From an uncultured Bacteroidota bacterium (GTDB lineage: Bacteria; Bacteroidota; Bacteroidia; AKYH767-A; JABDAW01), in contig CAIMUP010000141.1 of NCBI GenBank assembly GCA_903844645.1, forward strand, positions 1-64,000: a DNA stretch of 64,000 nucleotides, given 5' to 3'. A model generated the notes under the pieces. That model was given only the letters and a program-made list of their open reading frames with translations, was not told the origin of the DNA and made no database searches. The stretch's first letter is position 1; the number at the start of each line of letters is the position of its first letter. Of this stretch, positions 10,556 through 61,775 are shown piece after piece. Both the position numbers and the translations under genes were made by a program.

Positions 10556-10946
10556 CCGCTCCAATACAAAAACCCTTCAAATCGCAAAAGTGAACCCTCC
10601 AATCGCAAAAGTGAACCCTCCAATCGCAAAAGTGAACCCTCCAATCCAAAATGTGAACCCTCCAATCCAAAATGTGAACCGTCAAATCGCAAATGTGAAC
10701 CCCCGAATCGCAAATGTGAACCGCCAAATCGGAAAAGTGAACCGCCGAATCGCAAATGTTTACCGTTGAATAGAATAAAAAACCCGCCGAATCGCATCCC
10801 TTGACCCCCGAATCGCATTCCTTGACCGCCGAATCCAATCCCTTGACCGCTGAATCCAATCCCTTGACCCTCGAATCCAATCCCTTGACCGCTGAATCGC
10901 ATTCCTCTACCCTTGAATCCCATTTCTCTACTGTCAATTCGCGTTC
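10556..10946. repeat. Array A: 21-bp tandem array, about 18 units
   Basis: Units such as CCTCCAATCGCAAAAGTGAAC and CGCCGAATCCAATCCCTTGAC, 21 bp start to start, two sub-families. Confidence 0.95.
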
Positions 10947-12816: not shown

Positions 12817-12928
12817 GCCGCAAAATTAGTGAAAAACGGTGAAAGGTGGGTGAAGAGCCTTGGAAGGAATAAAAAATAAATCTCATCGGAAAGAGTATCT
12901 ATGTCGGAAAGAATGGTAGTTTGCACCG

Positions 12929-13018
12929 ATGAAGACCAAAAATTGTTCGCTGACTGATTCTCAAAAGTTGAGGGTTGCTCTATTGCCAATGGCTAAGACC
13001 CTCAACCGATGCAGGTAA
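12929..13018 (+). CDS. Putative 29-aa microprotein, copy 1 (leader of array B)
   Basis: MKTKNCSLTDSQKLRVALLPMAKTLNRCR*; collinear without gaps with the 29-aa ORF at 60655-60744; TTTGCACC box just upstream. Confidence 0.55.
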   Translation: MKTKNCSLTDSQKLRVALLPMAKTLNRCR

Positions 13019-13299
13019 GACGCACTCCTTATTATAGCCCCGTTTTTCCCCTCCCGAATCTCGTGGATAGGGTCTTTTTAGGGATTCTACATATATCCAG
13101 AACCGTTCTGCATATATGCATCTTCATTCTGCATACATGCATCGTCATTCTGCGTACATGCAGCGTCGTTCTGCATACATGCAGCGTCATTCTGCATACA
13201 TGCAGCGTCATTCTGCATACATGCAGCGTCGTTCTGCATACATGCAGCGTCATGCAGCATACATGCAGAATACCCCTACCTTTAACAATAAAGTATTAA
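13009..13299 (+). CDS. Putative heptad-repeat ORF across array B, overlapping the microprotein stop
   Basis: ATG overlaps the upstream stop by 10 nt; MQVRRTPYYSPVF...LHTCSVILHTCSVI; coding status unproven. Confidence 0.3.
   Translation: MQVRRTPYYSPVFPLPNLVDRVFLGILHISRTVLHICIFILHTCIVILRTCSVVLHTCSVILHTCSVILHTCSVVLHTCSVMQHTCRIPLPLTIKY
13085..13273. repeat. Array B: 21-bp tandem array, 9 units
   Basis: TTCTGCATACATGCAGCGTCA; each unit holds CTGCAT-AC-ATGCAG inverted repeat. Confidence 0.97.
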
Positions 13300-13332: not shown

Positions 13333-13407
13333 ATGAAATTTAGAACACCAAAATTATTAAGCATCTTCGTTCGGAAGACAAAAAAAGACCACGGCATGTC
13401 GAACTAA
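13333..13407 (+). CDS. Possible 24-aa small ORF downstream of array B
   Basis: MKFRTPKLLSIFVRKTKKDHGMSN* after an A-rich leader. Confidence 0.3.
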   Translation: MKFRTPKLLSIFVRKTKKDHGMSN

Positions 13408-17150: not shown

Positions 17151-17370
17151 ACCAATCCGTTATTCCCGATCCCATTATCTCGATAACTAGTCCCGTAATC
17201 TCGATAACCAGTTCCATTATCTCGATAACCAGTCCCATTACCTCGATAACCAGTCCCATTATCTCGGTAACCAGTCCCATTATCTCGGTAACCGATCCCA
17301 TTATCTCGATAACCGGTCCCATTATCTCGATAACTGGTCCTGTTATCTCGATAATTAGTCGGTTAATCTC
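17151..17370. repeat. Array C: 21-bp tandem array, about 9-10 units
   Basis: CCCATTATCTCGATAACCAGT repeated at 21-bp spacing from 17171. Confidence 0.96.
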
Positions 17371-19787: not shown

Positions 19788-20150
19788 ATGAACACCTTCG
19801 CAACAACGTATCAAAGCATAAAAAACCCTTTTTCCGGAAGAAATCTGGCAGGTCTTTCATTTTTCCCTGCTGGATTTCTTTCCATTTTCTCCTATTATAA
19901 GGAGGGTGCGGAGGCTGCGAATAGTGGTTTACATACTTCCTGTTCAGGAAGTACATATATTAAGAGTGATTTACAGACTTCCTGTTCGGGAAGTACATAT
20001 ATCAAGAATGATTTGCACGCTTCCTGTTCGGGAAGTGCATATATCAAGAGTGAAATACATACTTCCTGTTCAGAAAGTACATATATCAAGAGTGAAATAC
20101 ATGAATCCAGTTCGAGATGTATAGCAAACACTTTTTTGTATTGTAAATAA
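19788..20150 (+). CDS. Putative 14-aa-repeat Cys-containing protein encoded through array D
   Basis: ATG start with 47-aa unique N terminus, then LHTSCSGSTYIKSD-type repeats in frame to TAA. Confidence 0.4.
   Translation: MNTFATTYQSIKNPFSGRNLAGLSFFPAGFLSIFSYYKEGAEAANSGLHTSCSGSTYIKSDLQTSCSGSTYIKNDLHASCSGSAYIKSEIHTSCSESTYIKSEIHESSSRCIANTFLYCK
19935..20122. repeat. Array D: 42-bp (2x21) tandem array, 4-5 units
   Basis: ACTTCCTGTTCGGGAAGTACATATATCAAGAGTGATTTACAT; contains CTTCC..GGAAG inverted repeat. Confidence 0.96.
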
Positions 20151-20159
20151 TATAAAAGC

Positions 20160-21143
20160 ATGGCAAAGAAAGACAAATTAAAGTACGGTGAGAACCAATT
20201 CCTGTCAAAAACAAAGAATAGCATGGACAAAGCTGTGAAGCTGATTACCTACCACGCTGCCCAAATAGCGGCTGCTTTGCTTGCTAACCCTTTGGATGCC
20301 GATTATATTATGATGAATACCCGCACCGCTGCGGCTGCCTTGGATGCTACTAATAAATTTACCTCTTTTAATAGTGTGGAAGGTGTACAGTCTGGCGCGA
20401 CGGAAAATGTGGATGTGGAATTAGCCCTTGTTCAGGGTGCTGACGGAACCGCCCGCGACTGGTATAACCGTACCGCCGCCGAATATGCCAAAAATAATAA
20501 ACCTCGGATGAAAGCCATCTGGAATAAAGGCTTGAAACCATTCCGCGGAAAGAAAGATAATGTCATCCTCGCCTTGCATACCCTTAGCCAAAATATCGGT
20601 GCCGATGCGAACCCCAGGATGATTGTCATAAAAGCAGAAGTGGATGCCAAATATGCCATTCTGAATCCTGATCGTAATGTTCAAAAATCTGCCTTTTTTA
20701 ATACCGGAACGAGCAGCAAAGCCCTCAAGACTTCGTGCAATGCGGCGATGACGATAGAATATCAAAATGCCGGAATTATCATGAATAAATTCCCTGCCAA
20801 CTTGCTTTTGATTCAAGAATCATTTCACGATATGGAGCTTCTGCTGGATAAACAACAAATGGTTTTCAACCCCACCCTGAATGCGAATGAAACGCTCGAC
20901 TTGGCAAAAAGAACTATGGTATTTAATACCAAATTCCGCTGCACCACCACCAGTGGCGATGCCTGGATCTATCTATCCAGCACGGCTGGCGGAACGGATA
21001 GTACGCCGGTAAAAATTATTAATGGCATCCCATTAGAATTTATTGCCTCTGCCTTCGCTATCACCGATTATGGGCAACATTGCCACATCACCCTCGTCAA
21101 TAAAGCAGGCGTAAAGGTGAGCTTTCATCTGGAACAATTTTAA
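20160..21143 (+). CDS. Hypothetical protein
   Basis: 327-aa ORF MAKKDKLKYGENQFLSKTKNSMDKAVKLITYHAAQIAAALL; no recognised domain. Confidence 0.8.
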   Translation: MAKKDKLKYGENQFLSKTKNSMDKAVKLITYHAAQIAAALLANPLDADYIMMNTRTAAAALDATNKFTSFNSVEGVQSGATENVDVELALVQGADGTARDWYNRTAAEYAKNNKPRMKAIWNKGLKPFRGKKDNVILALHTLSQNIGADANPRMIVIKAEVDAKYAILNPDRNVQKSAFFNTGTSSKALKTSCNAAMTIEYQNAGIIMNKFPANLLLIQESFHDMELLLDKQQMVFNPTLNANETLDLAKRTMVFNTKFRCTTTSGDAWIYLSSTAGGTDSTPVKIINGIPLEFIASAFAITDYGQHCHITLVNKAGVKVSFHLEQF

Positions 21144-28035: not shown

Positions 28036-28470
28036 CAGCCGACGCTTCACTTTGGCAAAGTGCCTATACATTTTGCCAAAGTGTCTATACATTTCGGAAA
28101 AGTGTCTATACATTTCGGCAAAGTGTCTATACATTTTGGCAAAAGGTCTATACATTTCGGCTAAATGTATAGACCTTTTGCCAAAATGTATAGACATCTC
28201 GATAAAATGTATAGACATCTCGTTATCCGACAATATCCTTTTTCCAGCCGACGCTTCACTTTGGCAAAGTGAGTACTCAAAACACGAAAGTGAGTACTCA
28301 AATTCGGAAAGTGAGTACTCAAAAACCGAAAGTGAGTACTCAAAACGCGAAAGTGAGTACTCAAAATCGGAAAGTGAGTACTCAAAAACGGAAAGTGAGT
28401 ACTCAAAAAGCAAAAGTGAGTACTCAAAACGCAAAAGTGAGTACTCACTTTGCCAAAGTGAAGCGTCGGA
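28036..28470. repeat. Array F: composite 21-bp array, two unrelated sub-arrays and flanking 25-bp repeats
   Basis: AAAGTGTCTATACATTTCGGC from 28057 with an inverted portion at 28162; AAAGTGAGTACTCAAAACGCG from 28266 (9 units); GCCGACGCTTCACTTTGGCAAAGTG at both sub-array starts and inverted at the end. Confidence 0.97.
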
Positions 28471-34627: not shown

Positions 34628-35010
34628 CCAATAAAATATGTCCTCCGGAGAGAAGAATATGTTCTCCAAAGAAAAGCATACGTTCTCCAGAAAAAAGCAT
34701 ACATCCTCCAGAAAAAGCATATAGTCTTTTATTAAATCATATATGAAAAATAAAATAACCATACGTTCTCCAGAAAAAAGCATACATCCTCCAGAAAAAA
34801 GCATATAGTCTTTTATTAAATCATATATGAAAAATAAAATAACCATATGGTTTCCGGAAATAAGCATACACTTATTTTGGGAAACCATATAGTCTTTTTG
34901 GGAAATGATATACTTTTAACGAGAAGTGATATAATCTTCTCCAGAGACAGTATGCGTATTTCCGGAAACCATATGGTTATTTTATTTTTCATATATGATT
35001 TATCTTGAAG
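34628..35010. repeat. Array H: 21/42-bp tandem and inverted array
   Basis: CATACGTTCTCCAGAAAAAAG / CATACATCCTCCAGAAAAAAG; 42-bp block CATATAGTCTTTTATTAAATCATATATGAAAAATAAAATAAC twice; inverted CCATATGGTTATTTTATTTTTCATATATGATTTA at the right end. Confidence 0.92.
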
Positions 35011-46092: not shown

Positions 46093-46310
46093 ACAGTGAT
46101 GTTTTGGTAAAACTCGTTGATGTTTTAGTAAAACACGTATGAGTTTTCATCAAACACATACGAGTTTTCATCAAACACGTATGAGTTTTGGTCAAACACG
46201 TATGAGTTTTCATCAAACACGTACGAGTTTTAGTCAAACACATACGAGTTTGATGAAAACTCATACGTGTTTTACTAAAACATCAACGAGTTTTACCAAA
46301 ACATCATCGT
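46093..46310. repeat. Array K: 21-bp tandem array folded as a head-to-head inverted repeat
   Basis: GAGTTTTCATCAAACACGTAT units; 46240-46310 is the reverse complement of 46095-46165. Confidence 0.95.
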
Positions 46311-60641: not shown

Positions 60642-60653
60642 TATATTTGCACC
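60642..60653 (+). promoter_or_regulatory. TAnnTTTG -7 box immediately before the 60655 microprotein
   Basis: TATATTTGCACCCATG; exact TAnnTTTG with ATG about 6 nt later, possibly leaderless. Confidence 0.5.
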
Positions 60654-60654
60654 C

Positions 60655-60744
60655 ATGAACACCACGAACATATCGCTGACCGATTCTCAACTGTTGAGGG
60701 TTGCTCTTTTGCCACTGGCTAAGACCCTCTCACGATGGAACTGA
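60655..60744 (+). CDS. Putative 29-aa microprotein, copy 2 (leader of array N)
   Basis: MNTTNISLTDSQLLRVALLPLAKTLSRWN*; collinear with 12929-13018. Confidence 0.55.
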   Translation: MNTTNISLTDSQLLRVALLPLAKTLSRWN

Positions 60745-61061
60745 TCGGCACTCCTATATATATAGCATCGGAATTTCTGGTTTTCATCCTGGAAAAGCCG
60801 TTTTCCTCCCAAGGAAAGTCGCTGGTATCTGAAGGAAAACCATTTTCCTCCCAAGGAAAGTCGCTGGTATGTGAAGGAAGACCGTTTTCCTCCCAAGGAA
60901 AGTTGCTGGTATGTGAAGGAAAACCATTTTCCTCCCAAGGAAAGTCGCTGGTATGTGAAGGAAAACCATTTTCCTCCCAAGGAAAGTCGCTGGTATGTGA
61001 AGGAAAACCATTTTCCGAGACATGCCAGGGGGTAGTGAATAGGATTTTTCGGGTCGGATAA
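60735..61061 (+). CDS. Putative 14-aa-repeat ORF through array N, overlapping the microprotein stop
   Basis: MELIGTPIYIASEFLVFILEKPFSSQGKSLVSEGKPFSSQGKSLVCEG...; starts 80 nt after the microprotein ATG, exactly as in copy 1; unproven. Confidence 0.35.
   Translation: MELIGTPIYIASEFLVFILEKPFSSQGKSLVSEGKPFSSQGKSLVCEGRPFSSQGKLLVCEGKPFSSQGKSLVCEGKPFSSQGKSLVCEGKPFSETCQGVVNRIFRVG
60798..61020. repeat. Array N: 42-bp (2x21) tandem array, 5 units
   Basis: CCATTTTCCTCCCAAGGAAAGTCGCTGGTATGTGAAGGAAAA. Confidence 0.97.
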
Positions 61062-61112: not shown

Positions 61113-61775
61113 ATGAGTCACGAATTAGAACAAAAAATTTTACTGTTATCAAAACATGATAACCCAGAAATTAACAAAGACCAAATCAAATTGGTAGGCG
61201 ACAAGATGTTTTTAAGCACCAACTTGGTCATCAAAGCATCTGGATTGACGGGGCAAAATGGTGCCGAAACCATCCGTCTGGGCATCGTTCGGAAGGCAGA
61301 TGCCACGGTTGAACTTTCCAATTCGGTTGACCACCTACATGTGGTGAACGATGCCGGAGTGGATATTTATGAAGAGATGGCGAAAGTCCTCTTTGCCCAA
61401 TTGGGCGGCGACCCTGTAGAGATGAAAAAGTTTTTGGTCGAGTTAAGCAAAGCCGAGACGACCGATGGCACAAAACCTGGCAAAGCGTATGGCGGATCTA
61501 TCGTTCAGAGCGATACTGCGGGGATCGCATTGATGCACTTTCATCATATTAAAGGGGCGACTTTTTATAAGATTTGGGTGAGCAGCAATCCCGATCCGAC
61601 CATCTTGAGTGCCTACACCCGCTGCACTCCGGATACTTTTATAAGCTCTCGCGGAGGCGAGGTAGCGGTGGCAACAAATGTGAAACTGCACTTCCGAATC
61701 CAAGCCTGCAACACGCATGGCGACGGAGTGATGTCCGATCCCTTTGGCGGTATTTCCTTCAGCCCAACGGTGTAA
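61113..61775 (+). CDS. Hypothetical protein, fibronectin-III-like C-terminal half
   Basis: 220 aa; GATFYKIWVSSNPDPTILSAYTRCTPDTFISSRG...KLHFRIQACNTHGDGVMSDP. Confidence 0.75.
   Translation: MSHELEQKILLLSKHDNPEINKDQIKLVGDKMFLSTNLVIKASGLTGQNGAETIRLGIVRKADATVELSNSVDHLHVVNDAGVDIYEEMAKVLFAQLGGDPVEMKKFLVELSKAETTDGTKPGKAYGGSIVQSDTAGIALMHFHHIKGATFYKIWVSSNPDPTILSAYTRCTPDTFISSRGGEVAVATNVKLHFRIQACNTHGDGVMSDPFGGISFSPTV

Follow-up and report, generated by a model that had tools for sequence, protein, structure and literature searches.

Two loci of the window, i.e., the whole stretch of 64,000 nucleotides from an uncultured Bacteroidota genome analysed here, carry a short ORF (ORF1) whose stop codon overlaps the start of a longer ORF (ORF2) running through a tandem array, which raises the question of what this arrangement preserves. 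A preliminary description saw in it a conserved microprotein placed before a variable array. Its account of the layout holds at both loci: ATG2 (13009 and 60735) lies 80 nt after ATG1 and overlaps the first stop by 10 nt, the ORF2 frames (96 and 108 codons) run through both arrays, and the two arrays are unrelated to each other (Table 1). Four features were absent from that description, namely an inverted repeat in the ORF1 core, a third cistron (ORF3), a promoter adjoining ATG1 and 21-bp arrays throughout the genome. Judging from the comparison of sequences, the conserved items are a Bacteroidota promoter by ATG1, a hairpin 5 nt before ATG2 and the stop-start overlap, and not mainly a microprotein. 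We lean, with some reserve, towards a translationally coupled leader whose ribosomes would go on into ORF2 and through the array towards ORF3.

Table 1. Features of the two leader loci and of a related locus in the window
Feature	Position	Strand	Description
Copy 1, promoter-like -7 element	12917..12923	+	TAGTTTG; 5 nt before ATG1; aligned with TAnnTTTG of other copies
Copy 1, ORF1	12929..13018	+	29 codons, MKTKNCSLTDSQKLRVALLPMAKTLNRCR; TAA stop overlapping ORF2 start by 10 nt
Copy 1, hairpin P2	12970..13003	+	arms 12970-12976 GAGGGTT and 12997-13003 GACCCTC; covariation
Copy 1, ORF2	13009..13299	+	96 codons; spans array
Copy 1, array	13106..13268	+	21-bp period, 7.8 copies
Copy 1, 24-codon ORF	13333..13407	+	after A/T-rich stretch, at the ORF3 position of other loci
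Related locus, array ORF without ORF1 leader	19788..20150	+	120 codons; array 19923-20121; ends 9 nt before ORF3
Related locus, ORF3 (family IV)	20160..21143	+	327 aa; distantly homologous (24%) to the ORF3 of G002 that follows a leader
Copy 2, -7 promoter element	60642..60649	+	TATATTTG; predicted +1 one base before ATG1; element-to-+1 positions per PMC6847099
Copy 2, ORF1	60655..60744	+	29 codons, MNTTNISLTDSQLLRVALLPLAKTLSRWN, then stop
Copy 2, hairpin P2	60696..60729	+	arms 60696-60702 and 60723-60729
Copy 2, ORF2	60735..61061	+	108 codons; spans array
Copy 2, array	60791..61016	+	42-bp period, 5.4 copies
Copy 2, ORF3 (family I)	61113..61775	+	220 aa; 64% identity to the ORF3 behind leader and array in G001

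Leaders of one layout in three congeneric genomes

A DNA search recovered five copies of the leader in the window's own assembly (G000; 3.8 Mb, 143 contigs; E-values of 2.5e-5 or better) and one in a congener. The exact DNA pattern of the leader gave no match in the genome_contigs collection. An SSU for naming by 16S is absent from the assembly. Among 44 genomes of the order, the matches of a covariance model built from six leader copies were confined to the genus, with five in G000, three in G001 and two in G002. Further leaders, all from G002 (L091, L083, L110, L105/L138, L139 and L143), were found upstream of ORF3 paralogs and by a search with a hairpin model; they are diverged to the point of little sequence identity and their layout is unchanged. 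The leader thus recurs beyond chance. Four covariance-model matches (L137, L140, L141 and L142) were set aside as chance, and L136 is probably a decayed copy. G001 corresponds to the public MAG JABDAW01, "Bacteroidetes bacterium isolate BWOrgHeat_Nextera81_MAG6", an isolate name that we read as indicating a soil origin.

In total, 16 leaders were collected from the three genomes, numbers that are lower bounds, as are the array lengths, given fragmented assemblies in which numerous contigs terminate inside arrays; the sets of leaders and loci are small and partly related by descent. Behind each of the 16 lies an array of 21- or 42-bp period read by ORF2, and ORF3 is present downstream in most cases. 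The modular two-cistron system of the preliminary description, a conserved front followed by a variable array, is accordingly found at all 16 loci; the array as such is nevertheless not specific to the leader, because 21-bp arrays are a genome-wide trait of the genus.

Organisation of the leader and its promoter

The order of elements is a TAnnTTTG-like promoter element, a few nucleotides, ATG1, ORF1, the hairpin, 5 nt and ATG2 overlapping the ORF1 stop, and then ORF2 through the array, an A/T-rich stretch and ORF3, the last being apparently missing or decayed at copy 1. ORF1 has 29-38 codons and the start-to-start distances (80, 83, 86, 92 and 98 nt) are all 2 mod 3; for this spacing 14 leaders count, L139 and L143 not being independent evidence because their ORF1 was found by a script demanding it. 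ORF1 and ORF2 overlap by 10 nt in nine of the ten close copies, by 13 nt in one, and by 10-31 nt in the diverged leaders.

In the close copies, 5 nt separate the end of the promoter element from ATG1. It is imperfect in G2b, in G1c and in copy 1, where it is one base shorter than TAnnTTTG, and no recognisable element was seen at L139. From the positions of the -7 element of Flavobacterium johnsoniae (T-12 A-11 T-8 T-7 T-6 G-5; PMC6847099), the transcription start is predicted to precede ATG1 by one base in the close copies and by up to ~10 nt in the diverged leaders. Shine-Dalgarno sequences are absent from mRNAs of the phylum (PMC6847099). In flavobacteria, a minority of mRNAs is leaderless (5.5%; PMC9723704), so that reading of ORF1 from a leaderless or nearly leaderless mRNA is a prediction and not the default.

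A covarying hairpin before ATG2

The 3' arm of the hairpin ends 5 nt before ATG2 throughout a set of 14 leaders, in which 96 of 98 pair cells hold standard pairs and five of the seven pairs show double-sided compensatory changes (stem variants GAGGGUU/GACCCUC, GAGGGAU/AUCCCUC, AAGGAUU/AAUCCUU, AAAGAUU/AGUCUUU and GGAGCUU/AAGCUCC). Permuted 3' arms reached the observed pairing in 0 of 10000 trials, and in 1 of 20000 when 12 distinct leader classes were used; pair counting on a 12-row alignment gave four pairs changed on both sides and 94.2% paired (0/500 shuffles). The first six-copy alignment alone held no covariation, the signal being supplied by the diverged leaders. Pairing predicted for ATG2 itself is no higher than in shuffles (0.51 vs 0.56), so any block on ATG2 would come from the abutting hairpin: it is the hairpin, and not pairing of ATG2, that provides a structure near the downstream start which upstream translation could open. 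Single folds had suggested that an outer helix sequesters ATG2, a reading that was rejected because it did no better than shuffles.

Strong covariation at a fixed distance from ATG2 might also betray a regulator acting at the RNA level, be it an attenuator or a protein- or ligand-binding leader, in which the hairpin would answer a signal and ORF1 would be sensor or incidental. The likeness to the leader-peptide attenuators of amino-acid operons, inferred as well in Flavobacterium psychrophilum (PMC9723704), is that a short, presumably translated leader near the transcription start is followed by a hairpin. Unlike in attenuators, however, we found neither mutually exclusive hairpins including an intrinsic terminator nor sensor codons. 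No U-run follows P2 in the aligned leaders; the sole terminator-like site (copy 2, 60681-60703) is at chance level; a competing hairpin of an upstream segment with the 5' arm received no support from permutation (42 vs 42.7); no run of one codon or amino acid is common to the ORF1 sequences; and neither leader nor array has any match near the gathering score in Rfam 15. A regulator of this kind therefore appears to us rather unlikely.

Open frames with drifting codons

The ORF1 frame contains one stop in 276 codons; the alternative frames have 28 and 21. Frameshifts are absent from the ten close copies and an in-frame stop occurs in one of them (C43), in agreement with the frame integrity anticipated at the outset. 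The conserved microprotein itself fared less well: differences among the ORF1 copies fall evenly on the three codon positions (458/457/450), without third-position excess, the invariant bases are those of the hairpin, with compensatory changes, and purifying selection on the amino acids was not found in this small sample.

ORF2 is likewise open. Nine copies were tested and no stop was met in 307 pre-array and 547 array codons (854 in all), whereas the other two frames gave 23 and 16 stops before the array and 6 and 40 within it, with totals of 29 and 56 stops for these frames; both ORFs are thus open beyond chance, as in a coupled gene pair. Array units are 65-97% alike and differ from unit to unit at 197/210/219 positions of the first, second and third codon class, with a synonymous fraction of 0.270 vs 0.234 expected. 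Hence, frames are kept open while amino acids drift, and those of the array look neutral.

These counts weigh on a second alternative, in which a functional microprotein (ORF1) and a functional repeat protein (ORF2) act as products, perhaps together with ORF3. Apart from the intact frames, it can call upon the LP.AKTL and LELW-like tails common to ORF1 copies, the common M(E/Q)L..TPIY start of ORF2 and the first 14 ORF2 codons of the c2/G1a pair, where three of four changes are at third positions. Yet neither ORF1 nor the array has a third-position excess, the ORF2 start over all pairs gives 126/114/133 by codon position, the conserved ORF1 residues are largely forced by hairpin bases, and the array peptides share nothing from one locus to another and have been replaced at orthologous loci. 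Function as products is, in our opinion, improbable.

Replacement of the array behind the leader

Leaders of different species precede homologous ORF3 genes at the pairs c2/G1a (64% identity), C43/G2b (66%) and C133/G1b (47%). At c2/G1a, ~90% identity is seen in both flanks, over the initial 44 nt of ORF2 and over 60 nt around the start of ORF3, whereas alignment of the arrays scores no higher than that of shuffled sequence (13 vs mean 14); at the two other pairs the array similarity is not above noise either, though there the flanks have diverged too. Between relatives the leader persists and the whole array is exchanged for another, which suggests that passage of ribosomes is selected rather than peptides.

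Leaders also appear to have been exchanged or converted between loci, since G1a shares more of its leader with C43 than with its ortholog c2, and the c2 leader is more like other G000 copies than like its counterpart at the orthologous locus of G001; within-genome copies may be homogenised by conversion, which leaves fewer independent observations. This apparent exchange and the 78-91% identity of G000 copies over matched stretches would suit a duplicated or mobile promoter segment copied before arrays, with frame and overlap inherited and not selected, but such an origin is quite improbable given that L091, L083, L110 and L139 keep frame, compensated hairpin, overlap and open ORF2 at little identity, that neither transposase nor terminal repeats were seen, and that homologous ORF3 genes are kept at loci in other species.

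A proposed translationally coupled leader

What emerges from the comparison of these sequences is a hairpin, a frame, an overlap, an open ORF2, a replaced array and a downstream ORF3. Since what is conserved is what a ribosome would require for passing from ORF1 onto ORF2, we infer that the leader couples ORF2 to ORF1. ORF1 would be translated from a leaderless or near-leaderless mRNA, through the hairpin, to a stop ~7 nt past ATG2 in the other frame. As long as ORF1 is untranslated, the hairpin would hinder initiation at ATG2; once translated, its ribosome would open the hairpin and terminate on top of ATG2, and ORF2 would be started by this unfolding or by reinitiation, an established mechanism of coupling (PMC12548453). 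ORF2 would then take ribosomes through the 21-bp array and release them shortly before ORF3, the peptide sequences of ORF1 and array mattering little and the open translation path mattering most. It is tempting to hypothesize that ORF2 serves to keep the array translated before ORF3, which is the weakest step of the scheme: an untranslated leader of ~400 nt with partly palindromic repeats would probably lower ORF3 expression through polarity or RNA structure, but ORF3, with an A-rich start region of its own, may do without upstream translation. Against coupling speaks also copy C43, the sole one with a stop in ORF1, situated upstream of the hairpin, and whose ORF2 is open all the same; its close relative G1a (G001) has an intact ORF1.

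Coupled overlapping gene pairs (PMC12548453; PMC6728339) resemble this arrangement in that the upstream frame ends on the downstream start, as it does here, and in having a structure beside that start, with coupling by unfolding or reinitiation, which at our loci is deduced from the layout. They differ in three respects: here a very small ORF, probably leaderless and present at many loci, takes the place of the upstream gene, the frame downstream consists of a 21-bp array that can be replaced and has no conserved peptide, and the overlap is 10 nt instead of the common 1 or 4 nt. If confirmed, the leader would show a gene-control layout that conserves the act of translation, and not its product, across an array replaced wholesale at orthologous loci.

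ORF3 families and the arrays upstream

The ORF3 genes form four multi-copy families, restricted to the genus among the genomes searched, without match to a Pfam, NCBIfam or PHROGs family and without relative found in IMG/VR. AlphaFold, run with two sequences only, returned a pLDDT of 30 and the model was not used. The C-terminus of family I gave weak FN3-like hints that are not significant.

A 21x array lies <400 nt upstream at 30 of about 38 homologous ORF3 loci and is covered by an ATG-started ORF in 23/30 cases in sense and 9/30 in antisense, while the same test at ordinary tandem gene junctions gave 17/36 and 13/36; the covering ORF often ends 4-35 nt before ORF3. From these counts, ORF1-type leaders seem to be one of several ways to read arrays before ORF3. 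One may speculate that in this genus several fast-evolving gene families are expressed via a ribosome-swept array, where any in-frame 21-bp array, freely exchanged, must be translated and the ORF1 hairpin leader is a dedicated ribosome loader; we consider this possible at best, although, if true, the output of ORF3 could be tuned or diversified through the content or the length of the array, with no conserved protein or RNA sequence needed within it.

Other leader types were noticed upstream of ORF3. L084 and L085 (family I) share a different leader, CTTTCTACNGCC.TTCC.AAGAAAAATTAT, common to two species and placed before arrays and homologous ORF3, and L089 and L092 (family II) share a third type, a TTTGTGTAAACTC...AAGCC...CACACACA run, also common to two species.

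Arrays of 21-bp period throughout the genome

Of 92 tandem arrays counted in 344 kb of G000, 87 have a period of 21 bp or a multiple, i.e., 25 arrays per 100 kb. The density is 10-20 per 100 kb in congeners (small samples) and 1.7 in the sister genus; elsewhere in the order it ranges over 0-10 among the genomes sampled and is mostly 0, the densities of relatives resting on 20-60 kb each at most. Array units are mutually unrelated apart from a few pairs, palindromes are slightly enriched in them (mean arm 3.87 vs 3.34), and all kinds of intergenic region are occupied. A general coding role of the arrays was considered and rejected, since their frames are open in 49% of cases, below the 67% of a tandem 21-mer null, and the sense excess at tandem junctions is weak.

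We found no matching description of 21-bp-period arrays in Bacteroidota in the literature. The archaeal Borg tandem repeats (PMC9879509) are similar in that many unrelated arrays are present per genome, turn over fast and are in part in frame within small ORFs. In Borg arrays, however, unit length varies, the units are perfect and amino-acid repeats are under strong selection, whereas the arrays described here are locked at 21 bp or multiples, with degenerate units and amino acids that look neutral; near-perfect units and selected amino-acid repeats were not found. These data indicate that the genus carries hundreds of tandem arrays, unrelated to one another and all locked to a 21-bp period, and how such arrays arise and are maintained can be tested directly by comparing congeners.

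Many contigs start or end inside 21-bp arrays (e.g., L015:1, L018:1, L028:1 and L011:6982-7148), so the arrays probably break the assembly and are under-counted. Nearly one and the same unit is found in distant arrays (20/21 between L014:7266 and position 10782 of the window; 19/21 between L020:4 and L028:1), which suggests occasional copying of arrays to other sites. The window itself contains about 15 arrays, for instance at 10571-10920, 17170-17354, 28054-28447 and 46097-46307. In those at 28054-28222 and 46097-46307, the unit is inverted in the second half, as though a portion of the array had been turned around, and at 34677-34870 an 84-bp repeat is made of a piece of array and A/T-rich sequence duplicated as a block.
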